A stretch of 64,000 bases of DNA from a virus. The notes beneath the pieces were generated by a model, which worked only from the letters and a program-made list of their open reading frames with translations, did not search any database and had not been told where the DNA came from. Where the stretch lies: positions 1 through 64,000 of the IMG/VR virus record IMGVR_UViG_3300007734_000753, one strand, 5' to 3'. Made by a program: the position numbers and the translations under genes. Of the stretch, positions 49,050-55,022 are shown one piece after another (position 1 is the first letter of the stretch; the number at the start of each line of letters is the position of its first letter).

Positions 49050-51746
49050 ATGTCAACTTTCAAGTTAGATCCTTTCTTTCCAGACAAAAATCTAAATCCA
49101 CAAGGTTGGGTTACTGATTTTATTACAAGTCGCCTCCAAAGAGTTGGTCAGCAAAGAAGTGACTTGGCAAGCTTGTTATATGACGAAGTATTGTCGGAAG
49201 ATGCTAAAAAGCTTGTAAAAAATGATGCACTTGTAAAAGATATAGAAACTGCAAGAAAAAAGAATCCGAAAGATAAAACAATATATCTGAATCCTTTGTA
49301 TTATGATGCTGTTGAGAGAAACACAGCAATTTCATCACAGGTTGTAGAAGATGAAAGAGCTTTGAGAGATTATTTCAATTACATGATCAATATAAAGCCA
49401 AATGAACTTTCTTCTTTTGTTCCATACGTAAAGATGAAATTTGGTTACAAAGAACCGAATGAAAAGAAATATGAGGAAGTAGAAATCCCTTTTGTGCAAA
49501 ATCTAAAAACAGAAGTTAGTTCAATACTGGCTGATAAATTCTCCAGAGGTCAAGGTGCAGGTATAACTGGAATAACAGCAGACAGGTCTTTTCCCGGTCT
49601 TGGTTTGACACTAAATGTTAGTGTAAATGTGAAATACTTCTTTAGCAGTATCTCTATCATCACTAAAAAAATCTCAAGTGCATTTATTCCGGACGATCTA
49701 AACTTTACTTATACTAAATTATTTTCTTTTTTACCATCCAGAAAACAAAAATTGTTTCTAGAATATGGTTATCATGCGAATCCGCAAGATGAAAATTTGC
49801 GATTTGCGGGCAATAAAACAACATCAATTTCTACAATAAATGATATATTGAAAGCAGAAACCAAAAGAGTGCCACTCGCTTATAAAAGTCATAAGCTAAA
49901 TATACAAGAGGACGGTACAATTACAGTTGATGTAACTTATCTAGCAGAATCTGAAGCTAAATACTTCCAAAAAAACGATGTTACATCTCCGAGTTTGGAT
50001 TATATAAGTAAAATAAAAAATGAATCTTTGAGATCTGTTTTCAAGAATTATGCGGAATTGAATCAAAAGTATTATAAGATTCAAGATCAGCTAAAAGATT
50101 ATACAGAGCAAGAAGTTGAGCTTCAGCAAATTGGAAGTAACAAGAAAAAACTTGATTCAATCCGTAAAAAGAAAGAGGCAAAACAGAAAGAAAGTGTGCA
50201 AATCTCTAAAAATTTAACGATTGTAAAAGAAAAAATTGCGCCATTTGTCAAAGATTTATTTATAGACGCTCTAATAAAAAGAAATCAAGTATTTTCTGTT
50301 TCTTTTACTTCTGAAAGAAAACAAGATGAATTCAACATCACAAGTTATTTGAGCTTGATAAAATTCAATAAAGACACTAACAAGCAAGAATTTGTTGATG
50401 TTGCTCCACCCTTTGTGACAAAAAAGAATCTAAGCGATTATAAAAAGTTTGATATAGGTGTTCTTGAAAATAATACAGTGGGTCTAACAAAAGAAAATTT
50501 ATTTCAACAAATCTTAGTCAATCTCTTTGATGGAGTAGAAAGAGCAAAAGGCTCCAACAGATTTGGTTATATTACATTCTTTCCACTAAAAGCATTATTA
50601 TCAATAATGTATGAATTTTTACCAGATGAAAAAGATCCATCAATAAAGCAATCAATTCCATATATTTGTATTGGAAATGCAGTTGCTAGAAGCCTTGGAA
50701 AAGAATACTCAATAAACATTGGCGACATACTTGTTGAGATGGAAACCTTTAGAACTTGGCTTCATAAAAATTATGTGCAGAAGAATAGAACTGAATACTC
50801 TTTCTCCTCATTTATGATTGATGTTGTTGAAGATTTAGTACCGGAAATTTTATATAGAAGGAATACTGGCTTTTACAGACAAAATGCTTTAGGTACAATA
50901 AGACACCTAAATTATTTCAAGAAGCCAAACATTAGCCAAGAAACATTTGATAAGGTTTATAAAAATAATGTTGATTTTACAACACTAAAGAGTATCTTCT
51001 CATCAGAAAAAGAAAAAGATGCAGAAGCGATGATTTATTATACACAAATGCTAAATCCTCTAAATGACTATACTTCTCCTTATCATAAAAAATATATTGC
51101 CAAAAGAGTTCTTCAACAAGATTCATATGATTTAGCCCAAGATAGCGCATTAGGCATTCCTCACGTAAGTATTGGTGCTTCTAGAGGTCTAATAAAGAAA
51201 ATAAATTTCAGTGCAATTGAGCAACCATTTTTAGCTACTTCTCTTATCACTCAAGCCATGGTTGATGGGAATACTAGACTTCCAAGATATGCCTATAACA
51301 TAAGTGTTGATATGTTTGGAAATAACCTTTTCAACCAAGCTGGATTCCTAGCCGTGCCTCCTTTTGGCGTGGAAGGGGATACAGATGTTATACTAGGATT
51401 GACTGGTTATTATGTCGTTACAAAAGTTTCCGATTCGTTGTCTATTGATGGTGGATATAGCACAAGCATAAATGCAATATGGCATGAAGATCCTTTGAGA
51501 AACAAACTAAAGGGTGAAGTGGCAACAACCAAAGATGCCAAACAATTTCCAGATCTGTTAGAATATATACAGTTTTCTGTTGATAATTATATAAAAGATT
51601 TGCTGGAACTAGATCCAAATACTCTAAAAGCTCTAGGTATAACAGCCAATCCAGTCAAACAAGATAAGAAAACTGATGCAGAGAAGAAGCAAGATTCCAA
51701 AAAGCAGCCAAAGAGAGATAGAAAAGAAAACGTGGGAGCTAAATAA
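49050..51746 (+). CDS. Baseplate hub-type structural protein, 898 aa
   Basis: The long, charged protein starts two bases after the gp53-like gene. A central coiled coil lies around residues 325-395, and the C-terminal third contains 'IPHVSIGASRGLIKKINFSAIEQPFLATSLI', 'YAYNISVDMFGNNLFNQAGFLAVPPFG' and 'LTGYYVVTKVSDSL', blocks I know from large baseplate proteins of environmental T4-like phages. The tail end is Lys-rich and disordered. No lysozyme-type active site is seen. Confidence 0.6.
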   Translation: MSTFKLDPFFPDKNLNPQGWVTDFITSRLQRVGQQRSDLASLLYDEVLSEDAKKLVKNDALVKDIETARKKNPKDKTIYLNPLYYDAVERNTAISSQVVEDERALRDYFNYMINIKPNELSSFVPYVKMKFGYKEPNEKKYEEVEIPFVQNLKTEVSSILADKFSRGQGAGITGITADRSFPGLGLTLNVSVNVKYFFSSISIITKKISSAFIPDDLNFTYTKLFSFLPSRKQKLFLEYGYHANPQDENLRFAGNKTTSISTINDILKAETKRVPLAYKSHKLNIQEDGTITVDVTYLAESEAKYFQKNDVTSPSLDYISKIKNESLRSVFKNYAELNQKYYKIQDQLKDYTEQEVELQQIGSNKKKLDSIRKKKEAKQKESVQISKNLTIVKEKIAPFVKDLFIDALIKRNQVFSVSFTSERKQDEFNITSYLSLIKFNKDTNKQEFVDVAPPFVTKKNLSDYKKFDIGVLENNTVGLTKENLFQQILVNLFDGVERAKGSNRFGYITFFPLKALLSIMYEFLPDEKDPSIKQSIPYICIGNAVARSLGKEYSINIGDILVEMETFRTWLHKNYVQKNRTEYSFSSFMIDVVEDLVPEILYRRNTGFYRQNALGTIRHLNYFKKPNISQETFDKVYKNNVDFTTLKSIFSSEKEKDAEAMIYYTQMLNPLNDYTSPYHKKYIAKRVLQQDSYDLAQDSALGIPHVSIGASRGLIKKINFSAIEQPFLATSLITQAMVDGNTRLPRYAYNISVDMFGNNLFNQAGFLAVPPFGVEGDTDVILGLTGYYVVTKVSDSLSIDGGYSTSINAIWHEDPLRNKLKGEVATTKDAKQFPDLLEYIQFSVDNYIKDLLELDPNTLKALGITANPVKQDKKTDAEKKQDSKKQPKRDRKENVGAK

Positions 51747-53011
51747 TGGCAGTATCTAATGCGACAAATCTATCAAATGCAAAAGATATGTATGAGGGTA
51801 GATCTGCCTATAAAGAAGAGTTTCCTAAAACCGATATACAATTCGATTCAGGTTACACAAATAGACTTTTTGGTAGAGTGGATACGCTTGGAAACGTAAT
51901 ACAGGTCAATGAGTCTTTTCTTTCCTTCTTTGCAACAGCAATAGACAAAAGCAATGCTTCTTGCATACATTTTGTGGCTGATGCCTTTTTAGATTGTAGA
52001 AAACAATATAATATACAAGCTGCAAAAGGCAATATAAACACAGCATCTCCTTTCTTTCAGGATACCTTTCCTGTTTATCAAGGCTGGAAAAAACAGGAGT
52101 CCTTATTCGGCACAAACAACAACAACGTTTATACGTCTTTTACAAATTATATTTTTAATAATTCCTATAAAGTTTCTAAATTTGAGAATTACACGGAGTT
52201 ATTGTTGAAATTTCTGAAAGAAGCGGATTTGCCATTGACAAGAGTTGGGTTTTATGAAAGCCCTTTCAATCCACCATATACAAGCGGAATTGTTTTGGAC
52301 GTTTTTGAGGGAGATGCAGGCGACGATTCGACAAGAGAGCAGTTTATTTCAGATCCAAATTATCCTTTAGTTTCTGAATTGCTTGCTGATAGAGGTTTGA
52401 GATTTGATGCTCAAGTTCCTTGGAGAATTATTGCAAACATACAATCTGGCAATCTACAGCCTTATATCCAAAAGAGGCTAAATAAATCTAATTTTGTTCT
52501 TCAAGACATATTTGATAGATTTTATTTCAAGTCTTTTGAGGGAGTTGAGTTTACATCATTTCAAGAGTTCAAGAACACAATAAAAGCCTTTTATAATGCT
52601 TATAAAGTTGTCTTTCCAAAATTCAATCAGTTTGTTTATCACCCTTCTCCAATACAGCAAACATTTGCAAAAGGAGCTTACGCCAACACTAACTCTTGCA
52701 GCGGCGTAAAGAACGTATTTGTTTACGCTGAAGATATAAAACTTGTCCCTGATTCTAAAGAAGATGATTTATTCTTCCTTGACTTGTATTATCAAACAAG
52801 ATTATTGGAAACCAAAACAATTCTGAAAGATTCTGTTCAAGAATTTCATAGAGGTAATTATCGTGGATTTTATCTCAACGATAAAAATAGACAAAATGGT
52901 ATAAAAAAGGCTGTGAGCTATATCAACTATAATTTGGGTACCCTAGCTTTCAGAAGTCCAAGCGTGGACGAAATAAACTTGACGAGAACTGGCAACGCTG
53001 TTACCATGTAG
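51746..53011 (+). CDS. Baseplate-associated structural protein, 421 aa
   Basis: The start overlaps the previous stop (TAATG). The protein is Phe/Tyr/Asn-rich with no catalytic motif. It is the last gene of the tail cluster before the replication genes. The last codons contain a sigma70-like promoter for the downstream polymerase gene (52979-53007). Function unknown; a virion role is inferred from linkage. Confidence 0.5.
   Translation: MAVSNATNLSNAKDMYEGRSAYKEEFPKTDIQFDSGYTNRLFGRVDTLGNVIQVNESFLSFFATAIDKSNASCIHFVADAFLDCRKQYNIQAAKGNINTASPFFQDTFPVYQGWKKQESLFGTNNNNVYTSFTNYIFNNSYKVSKFENYTELLLKFLKEADLPLTRVGFYESPFNPPYTSGIVLDVFEGDAGDDSTREQFISDPNYPLVSELLADRGLRFDAQVPWRIIANIQSGNLQPYIQKRLNKSNFVLQDIFDRFYFKSFEGVEFTSFQEFKNTIKAFYNAYKVVFPKFNQFVYHPSPIQQTFAKGAYANTNSCSGVKNVFVYAEDIKLVPDSKEDDLFFLDLYYQTRLLETKTILKDSVQEFHRGNYRGFYLNDKNRQNGIKKAVSYINYNLGTLAFRSPSVDEINLTRTGNAVTM
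52979..53007 (+). promoter_or_regulatory. Candidate sigma70-type early promoter
   Basis: TTGACG, a 17-base spacer, then TACCAT stands inside the end of the last tail gene, ten bases before the polymerase start. The spacing equals that of the three better promoters at 56886, 58286 and 59849; the -10 box is weak (4 of 6). Confidence 0.35.
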
Positions 53012-53016
53012 CTGCC

Positions 53017-54189
53017 ATGTACTTCCAAACTATTGAACGTAACAAAAACTGCTTTGGTTTTTATGCGGATGGATCAATCAAAATCGATCTGCTGCCATCG
53101 CATCCATCAAAAACTTGGGATTACACACACCTATGCGATGACAGCACAGAACTTGCCAAGATCTATTGTGGTGGCAAGACACTTCTTGAGGTGTGTCCCG
53201 AGGAACTAAAGGACGAAGCCGTACAAAGTTTTGATAAACTGAAGGCTTTTATGCGTAGTATGGTTCACGCCAAGATAGATTTTGATGTGAATTGTTTTTA
53301 TGATCTGCTTCCAGAAAAGTTCTTGTTAGAACACTTTGAGATACGTAATAAAATCACTAAATATGTGCTTGAAAATTACGAAAAGCCAAAGAACTATGAA
53401 ACTCTACGTGACGCCTCAGAGCTAATTTATAACATCGAACAACACAAGCTAAACATCGACCTAGAATCGGTCAAGAAAAAGCTGCCAAATCCAAAAGCGC
53501 AAAGATTTATAAAAAACAAGTATCCAAATCGTATCAAATATAATGTATTTGGTGCAGTTACGGGTCGTCTGACGCTAGGCAAAGACAGTTTTCCAATTCT
53601 GAATCTCGATAAAGAGCTTCGTGATTGTATCAAACCGAACAATCATCGTTTTGTTGAGCTAGATTATAATTCAGCAGAGCTTCGTGTTTTGCTTGCCATA
53701 TGCAATAAAGAGCAGCCAACCATTGATTTGCATGAGTGGAACTCAATAAACATCTTTGGTGGTAAGTTAGACCGCTCAAAAGCCAAACAGAAGATCTTTT
53801 CATGGCTTTATGACAAGAAAACTAACGATTTGGCTGAAAAAGTTTATGATAAACAGATAATTATAGATAAATTCTATGATGGAAATAAAGTGAAAACTGT
53901 TTATAATCGAGAGATTGAGTGCGACCAAGAACATGCTGTAAATTATGTCATTCAGAGCACAGCAACTGATTTGGTCGTGGAACAAGCACACAAGATTCAG
54001 AAGATTTTGCAAGGCAAGAAGTCTTTTATCGCATTTTATCTATATGATTCTGTTGTATTGGACTTCCACAAGGAAGATATGCATCTGCTGAAACAAATTG
54101 CAAATACATTTTCTAATACTCGGTTTGGAAACTTTTTGACCAATGTTTCTGTTGGCAAGAACTTTGGCGAAATGGAGAAGAACAAATGA
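53017..54189 (+). CDS. Minimal family A (PolI-like) DNA polymerase
   Basis: The 390-residue protein has the polymerase motifs in order. 'FGAVTGRLTLGKDSFPILNL' (near residue 176) is followed by motif A 'LDYNSAELR' with D216. A Lys-rich helix 'DRSKAKQKIFSWLYDKK' is a probable motif B. Motif C is 'YLYDSVVLDF' with D344. The normal motif C His-Asp-Glu is Tyr-Asp-Ser here, so one carboxylate is missing. No 3'-5' exonuclease motifs occur in the first 170 residues, unlike full-size PolI (928). It could be a gap-filling polymerase or a divergent replicase. It overlaps the next gene by four bases. Confidence 0.7.
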   Translation: MYFQTIERNKNCFGFYADGSIKIDLLPSHPSKTWDYTHLCDDSTELAKIYCGGKTLLEVCPEELKDEAVQSFDKLKAFMRSMVHAKIDFDVNCFYDLLPEKFLLEHFEIRNKITKYVLENYEKPKNYETLRDASELIYNIEQHKLNIDLESVKKKLPNPKAQRFIKNKYPNRIKYNVFGAVTGRLTLGKDSFPILNLDKELRDCIKPNNHRFVELDYNSAELRVLLAICNKEQPTIDLHEWNSINIFGGKLDRSKAKQKIFSWLYDKKTNDLAEKVYDKQIIIDKFYDGNKVKTVYNREIECDQEHAVNYVIQSTATDLVVEQAHKIQKILQGKKSFIAFYLYDSVVLDFHKEDMHLLKQIANTFSNTRFGNFLTNVSVGKNFGEMEKNK

Positions 54190-55022
54190 TTTTTATGGGG
54201 CTTGGCGGTGGTGGTTGCTCGTTGGCAAAAAGATTTTATGAAGTTGCCGAGGAAGGCAATCAACTATTTCTTTTCGACACAAATGAAAAATATAAGCTTC
54301 CCAAAACCAAGTCAATGGAGGAAGCGGAACAAAAAACGCCAGACTTCAAGCTCAACATAAAAGATGAAGACATATTGTTTATTCTTTGTGGGGGTGGAAA
54401 TACATCTGGTCATGCTTTGAGAATTCTTGAGCAGATAAAAGATAATAACATTGACATTATTTATGTGCGCCCAGATCTTTCTTTGGCAAATTCAGAAGAG
54501 AAGCTTCGTGAAAAAGTTGTTTTCAATATATTTCAGGAAATGACTCGTTCTGGATTGTTCAACAAGATGATTCTGGTTTCCAATGAGCATATTGCAAAGT
54601 CAAACGAAGATATAGCTCTTGACAATTATTACGATAAAATCAATGAAACGGTTGAATATGTTTATGGTCACATCAACTTCTTTCTTTCTAAGAAAGCAAT
54701 TAGAAGCAACTTGACAAGCCCGAAAGAAGCATGTAGGCTTGTCACTATCGGCATGGTAGATTACGAATCTGGTGAAGAGCAGATGTTATTCCCGATGGAA
54801 AATATAAGAGAAAAACAGTTTCTTTTCGGCTTGTCGCCTGAATCTGTAAAAAATCGTAAATCGTTACAAAAAATTCAAGACCACTTGACAAAAATTGAAA
54901 AGCAGGGTATCATCTGTTCCCATAAGATTCTTTCACTAGAAATAAGTGACAATCTCGTTTTTACTATTAATTACACTAATTTTATACAAAACCAACTTAT
55001 ACTAAACAACGGAGAAAACTAA
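54186..55022 (+). CDS. Tubulin/FtsZ-like GTPase, divergent
   Basis: The 278-residue protein has tubulin-superfamily landmarks in order. The N-terminal Gly loop is 'MGLGGGGCSLAKRFYE' (residues 4-19). The signature loop 'CGGGNTSGHALRI' (69-75) matches GGGTGSG. 'IDIIYVRPDLSLANSEEKLRE' parallels the FtsZ 'VTRPF' strand and helix, and 'MILVSNEHI' parallels 'IVIPNDKL'. 'RSNLTSPKEACRLVTIGMVDY' sits where the T6/T7 Asn and synergy-loop region is expected. Phage tubulins (PhuZ, TubZ-like) centre or move phage DNA. It is coupled by ATGA to the polymerase gene and followed by the gp32-like gene. It is shorter than FtsZ (about 380) and the C-terminal half is diverged. Confidence 0.65.
   Translation: MIFMGLGGGGCSLAKRFYEVAEEGNQLFLFDTNEKYKLPKTKSMEEAEQKTPDFKLNIKDEDILFILCGGGNTSGHALRILEQIKDNNIDIIYVRPDLSLANSEEKLREKVVFNIFQEMTRSGLFNKMILVSNEHIAKSNEDIALDNYYDKINETVEYVYGHINFFLSKKAIRSNLTSPKEACRLVTIGMVDYESGEEQMLFPMENIREKQFLFGLSPESVKNRKSLQKIQDHLTKIEKQGIICSHKILSLEISDNLVFTINYTNFIQNQLILNNGEN

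Follow-up and report, generated by a model that had tools for sequence, protein, structure and literature searches.

A shortened tubulin/FtsZ-like protein predicted in the polymerase-SSB slot of uncultivated T4-like phages

A gene for a protein with a predicted minimal tubulin/FtsZ fold, here termed TUB, lies between the genes for a family-A DNA polymerase (polA) and a gp32-like single-stranded DNA-binding protein (SSB) in a large group of uncultivated T4-like phages, and is in all likelihood a core gene of their replication module. This clade-defining position in a fixed slot is our strongest finding and is new beyond an earlier sequence-only reading of the same DNA, in which the gene product had been described as a divergent tubulin/FtsZ-like GTPase. 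The window analysed here is a stretch of 64,000 nucleotides (positions 1 to 64,000) of the IMG/VR virus record IMGVR_UViG_3300007734_000753, a record of 76.7 kb. The tubulin family is known for cytoskeletal motors and for the rings of cell division; TUB is an obligatory replication-module gene in a phage group without any cultivated member that we could find, and the elements responsible for filament turnover have disappeared from its product. Together, our results suggest that in these phages a tubulin fold was recruited as a permanent part of the machinery that copies their DNA.

The gene and its fixed slot

The TUB reading frame is complete, with an ATG start, 278 codons, a stop and a GGAG 5' of the ATG (Table 1). 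Its start overlaps the polA stop by 4 bp (ATGA), and a single base pair separates its end from the ATG of SSB, which is preceded by a GGAG of its own. Further downstream, the translations indicate a 346-aa ORF of unknown function, a RecA/UvsX-like protein and a peptide deformylase, and PHROGs adds a 5'-3' exonuclease, a DnaB-like helicase and a ribonucleotide reductase. Upstream of polA (window 49050-53011) lie ORFs of 898 and 421 aa, which have no Pfam or PHROG match and keep their order in related loci.

Table 1. Location of the genes and residues discussed. Positions are those of the window except for X140; residue numbers are those of the window TUB, and percentages refer to 123 TUB members.
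Feature	Position	Strand	Basis
polA, family-A DNA polymerase, 390 aa	53017..54189	+	Pfam PF00476 3.6e-12, phrog_17 1.6e-16
TUB, 278-aa minimal tubulin/FtsZ-fold protein (predicted)	54186..55022	+	ORF, translation, AlphaFold2, Foldseek, family of at least 595 contigs
T1 glycine loop, residues 5-11	54198..54218	+	G5, G7, G10 in 123/123
E45, in the short helix remaining of the T3/H3 region	54318..54320	+	99% conserved, AlphaFold2 model
T4 loop, residues 69-75, GGGNTSG (family GxGKxSG)	54390..54410	+	profile-aligned with FtsZ GGGTGTG
T5 strand end YVRPD, residues 93-97	54462..54476	+	P96 88%, D97 89% (E 10%)
Family-specific QxxxRSG, end of H5, residues 117-123	54534..54554	+	Q117, R121, G123 invariant in alignment A1 and in 123 members
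N133, at the place of the FtsZ IPN asparagine	54582..54584	+	97%, alignment with FtsZ
N153, start of H7, tubulin guanine-contact position	54642..54644	+	95%, helix 145-168
T7 region without catalytic NxDxxD, residues 169-184	54690..54737	+	R184 91%
SSB, gp32-like single-stranded DNA-binding protein, 245 aa	55024..55761	+	Pfam PF08804 1.4e-16, phrog_1192 8.7e-29
X140, sister lineage	L239:1186-1599 and 49 similar ORFs in L195-L274; MW353176.1 1346-1801; PP395634.1 51674-52063; LR756508.1 243784-244170		

The sequence-only reading had placed the gene between the polymerase and SSB genes of a T4-like phage; Pfam and PHROG matches of both neighbours bear this out, and the association extends to related genomes. 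Loci were collected with two baits, and the following counts apply to these samples rather than to all viruses: among loci holding both neighbours, the order polA-TUB-SSB was found in 54 of 54 SSB-baited and 67 of 67 TUB-baited ones, TUB was present in all 34 SSB-baited loci in which SSB lies at least 4 kb into the locus, and, of loci extending far enough, 37/37 and 51/52 had polA upstream. At the sole exception, L143, TUB is preceded by an unrelated 663-aa ORF of unknown function (L143:1-1992) that is open at the contig end, and polA may sit past that end. Many TUB loci carry a small gene of 85-95 aa (GTFTKxxGxxRTMxF) between TUB and SSB (e.g. L143:2840-3097 and L024:1401-1688), which the window lacks, and in L019 and L020 (L020:3345-5033) a gene for a 563-aa GHKL/HATPase_c_3 (Hsp90/MORC-type) ATPase is inserted between polA and TUB.

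TUB relatives were found on at least 595 contigs of IMG/VR. Terminase and capsid mark the TUB-bearing records, which reach 191 kb, as T4-like. Eleven records of 58-191 kb hold one full TUB copy each, and the median dN/dS of the gene, about 0.06 over 60 pairs, points to purifying selection. The record of L033 holds, in addition, a broken C-terminal TUB fragment with two stops (G037:C1:69499-69648, profile positions 196-245) about 900 bases from the intact copy. A further candidate locus, L002, was rejected as a chance DNYYDKIN match inside an unrelated ORF among structural genes. Four diverse TUB members had no match in 50,697 phage records and one member had none in 72,556 plasmids; among 84,980 species genomes a single match was obtained, in a WOR-3 MAG (L089, CP070664.1, 2245201-2258034). 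This match is a phage fragment with the order polA-TUB-SSB-UvsX sitting between runs of N, for which reason we do not take it as evidence of a prophage or host gene; its presence in the MAG chromosome is most simply an assembly or scaffolding artefact. We found no description of the family in the open-access literature.

Fold, retained residues and losses

The kinship of TUB to tubulins is nearly invisible by sequence, and it is structure prediction that decides the assignment. The AlphaFold2 model of one member, folded with 49 relatives (pLDDT 93, pTM 0.90), has the complete two-domain tubulin/FtsZ topology, with a Rossmann-type N-terminal domain, H7 and a C-terminal alpha/beta domain, and its best 50 Foldseek matches in the PDB are all FtsZ, CetZ, TubZ or tubulin (best E 9.7e-12, TM-scores of about 0.6-0.7 along the whole length). 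The viral library gave as its top match a phage protein annotated as FtsZ, with 12% identity. By sequence, PHROGs gave no clear family and the Pfam Tubulin match of the window TUB (E 0.0016) was under the cut-off. A profile of 123 TUB members aligns with FtsZ over 159 co-linear columns with a score of 38.2, compared with at most 22.9 for 60 column shuffles and 12.8 for the reversed profile. On this predicted structure, we consider a tubulin/FtsZ fold very probable.

The main competitor for the fold is an NAD(P)-type Rossmann protein that merely resembles tubulin and whose role in the replication operon would be that of a sensor or enzyme that binds dinucleotides. It draws on the GxGxxG of the T1 stretch, which alone fits FtsZ and NAD-binding families equally well and is followed by a conserved aspartate at the end of strand 2 (D31, 84% over 123 members), on Pfam matches, all of them weak, to TrkA_N in 23 of 50 members against 7 of 50 for Tubulin, and on a TrkA profile score (39.5) slightly above that of FtsZ. 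However, the TrkA match spans just the 31 columns of the glycine loop rather than a whole Rossmann domain, and without this loop the FtsZ alignment still extends over 111 columns (E 0.0016) and that of TrkA over 36 (E 0.015). With the predicted fold being that of tubulin over its full length, including H7 and the C-terminal domain, and with no better Rossmann match at the whole-fold level, an NAD(P)-type protein is very improbable.

Residue conservation was assessed over the 123 TUB members and in an alignment (A1) with 9 invariant columns that combines the window TUB with 49 relatives of 23-45% identity, collected by way of their SSB genes rather than by TUB itself. The motifs on which the sequence-only reading was built are present: GLGGGGCS (5-12), GGGNTSG (69-75), YVRPDLSL (93-100) and asparagines at 133 and 153. 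The model contains S1-H1-S2, S4-T4-H4, S5-T5-H5, S6-H6 and a long H7 (145-168), element names that we take over by comparison with FtsZ, and both guanine-contact asparagines (S6/H6 and H7) are placed by the profile together with predicted secondary structure. At T4, G69 is conserved to 99%; the strict tubulin signature GGGTG[TS]G is absent and replaced by the altered form GxGKxSG, which is itself degenerate in one subclade.

Other parts of the tubulin fold are gone. S3/T3/H3 is reduced to one small helix in the model, a shortening also seen in the alignment, so that the T3 loop, the gamma-phosphate sensor of FtsZ, is missing, as are H8 and H9 of the C-terminal domain in the model. The T7 motif NxDxxD occurs in 1 of 123 TUB members as compared with 17 of 17 FtsZ proteins, and most members stop a few residues past Q268, without a long C-terminal tail. 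The earlier description as a GTPase has therefore fared unevenly: the fold stands, and the enzymatic part is doubtful given the loss of T7 in 122/123 members and of the T3 loop. The family has instead its own QxxxRSG motif, which presumably sits away from the nucleotide, judging by the known topology of the tubulin fold. The search pattern used to collect TUB relatives from IMG/VR included this motif, but its invariance is not an effect of the pattern, since it holds also in A1. Other residues, such as its Q117 and R121, could perform catalysis in place of T7.

In the subclade formed by L017, L018, L019 and L021, the T4 Ser/Gly, N133 and N153 are lost and QxxxRSG, E45, R184 and Q268 are kept. 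These proteins have lost both guanine-contact asparagines, yet dN/dS between L018 and L019 is 0.07, so selection in this subclade must be preserving something other than canonical guanine binding, and they probably represent a tubulin fold without its nucleotide.

Possible roles of TUB

As a shortened member of the tubulin/FtsZ superfamily, TUB may serve as a static structural subunit of the phage replication machinery, a reading that we favour but hold tentatively. The losses of T3, H8/H9 and T7 make a static nucleotide-binding subunit likelier than a PhuZ-like motor filament, and the tight coupling with polymerase and SSB, together with universal retention, favours a role in replication itself, although a shared operon is only indirect evidence for contact with either protein. 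As we envisage it, TUB would be made in step with the polymerase and SSB from one operon, would probably bind a nucleotide through the conserved face formed by T1, T4, T5 and the asparagines, and would carry out little or no hydrolysis of the tubulin type. Its conserved QxxxRSG/R184 side would serve for association, whether among TUB molecules that form static oligomers or with the polymerase or SSB themselves, and the resulting subunit would hold or load the replication complex.

PhuZ and phage TubZ of phiKZ-like jumbo phages are tubulin-fold proteins encoded by tailed phages (PMC3678025, PMC4244570). On a different proposal, which takes up the DNA positioning suggested in the sequence-only reading, TUB would polymerise with nucleotide and position or segregate phage DNA during its replication, much as PhuZ acts in nucleus-forming jumbo phages and TubZ on plasmids. 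Phage relatives of the fold do position DNA (PMC4244570), such a task would fit the location in a replication operon, and the nucleotide loops T1, T4 and T5 and both asparagines are largely retained. However, PhuZ has the catalytic T7 aspartate as well as an extended C-terminus that its three-stranded filament needs, and mutation of that aspartate abolishes dynamics, leaving stable filaments, and impairs the positioning of DNA (PMC4244570). TUB has lost this T7 motif, which makes filament turnover unlikely for it. It also has no long tail of the type on which PhuZ filaments depend, lacks T3 and H8/H9 as well, and differs from PhuZ in being the middle gene of polA-TUB-SSB in a T4-like group; we regard a DNA-positioning filament as an unlikely role. 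Still less probable, in our view, is the other role suggested in the sequence-only reading, an action on host FtsZ, in which TUB would mimic an FtsZ subunit and cap or poison host FtsZ filaments, so that division is blocked during infection. Anti-FtsZ proteins are common in phages, and a kept upper, nucleotide-binding face combined with an altered lower T7/H8 face is what might be expected of a cap for one filament end. In the loci collected, however, TUB was never seen outside the polA-SSB slot, which is unusual for a host-takeover gene, and the invariance of Q117, R121 and G123 across very divergent phages is unlike an adaptation to varying hosts. Since plasmids were searched with one member and phages with four, TUB may be used more widely than these loci show.

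Comparison with other members of the superfamily leaves TUB well apart from each of them. It shares with FtsZ, its best PDB match, the two-domain fold with H7 and the same order of T1, T4, T5 and the two asparagines, but is only 10-14% identical, is about 270 aa long as opposed to more than 300 aa for the FtsZ core, and is found without a context of division genes. Plasmid TubZ (of TubZRC) and archaeal CetZ are among the 50 best fold matches (2xka, 3zid), whereas the plasmid search with one TUB member gave no match. Three FtsZ/tubulin-like proteins of uncultured phages in BFVD (A0A6J5RW92, A0A8S5UFG9 and A0A8S5USZ9) are alike by structure, but with about 12% identity and lengths of 347-452 aa they evidently belong to other families. 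If TUB still forms filaments, it would be a natural hydrolysis-deficient tubulin, and if it serves replication directly, the known range of tubulin-fold roles widens.

The sister lineage has a different gene between polA and SSB

Judged from terminase, helicase and SSB, the TUB-bearing phages have as their nearest named relatives Flavobacterium phage immuto, Microcystis phage Mel-JY01 and the uncultured LR756508. In loci collected with the Mel-JY01 SSB as bait, polA and SSB occur together in 41 and TUB in none, and no distant TUB homologue was found near polA or SSB of immuto, Mel-JY01, SPO1 or LR756508. The slot is instead occupied by X140, a protein of about 130 aa with invariant HR, N and W residues, which was found as 50 ORFs in this lineage and in immuto, Mel-JY01 and LR756508. 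Among 166 loci with polA and SSB, 122 have TUB, 43 have X140, one (SPO1) has neither and none has both. Whole records agree with this, as eleven TUB records lack X140 and one X140 record (181.6 kb) lacks TUB; a search of the record that holds the window likewise gave no X140.

X140 resembles TUB in being the core gene of its own lineage in the same polA-SSB slot, but differs from it in predicted fold, and no homology between the two was found. Its AlphaFold2 model is confident (pLDDT 92) and has no fold match in the PDB, and therefore provides no clue to the function of the slot. On both the SSB and the polA trees the TUB/X140 exchange is one change, which suggests, and does not prove, that one of the two replaced the other. 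It is possible, if rather doubtful, that a hydrolysis-lacking TUB is an integral replisome subunit, namely a polymerase accessory, a loader or a static scaffold, that took the slot of X140; if so, TUB would to our knowledge be the first member of the tubulin superfamily to be employed for DNA synthesis proper instead of as cytoskeleton. The TUB/X140 pair in one slot offers a concrete test of what the polymerase-SSB unit needs in these phages.

The idea that polA was swapped or accelerated along with TUB is unsupported, the ratio of between-group to within-group distances being 2.7 for polA and 1.7-3.0 for neighbouring genes. Family-A polymerases usually carry HDE in motif C; the TUB group (window 53017-54189 and related loci) mostly has HDS, HDA or YDS at this motif, and the sister group has YDA or YDS.
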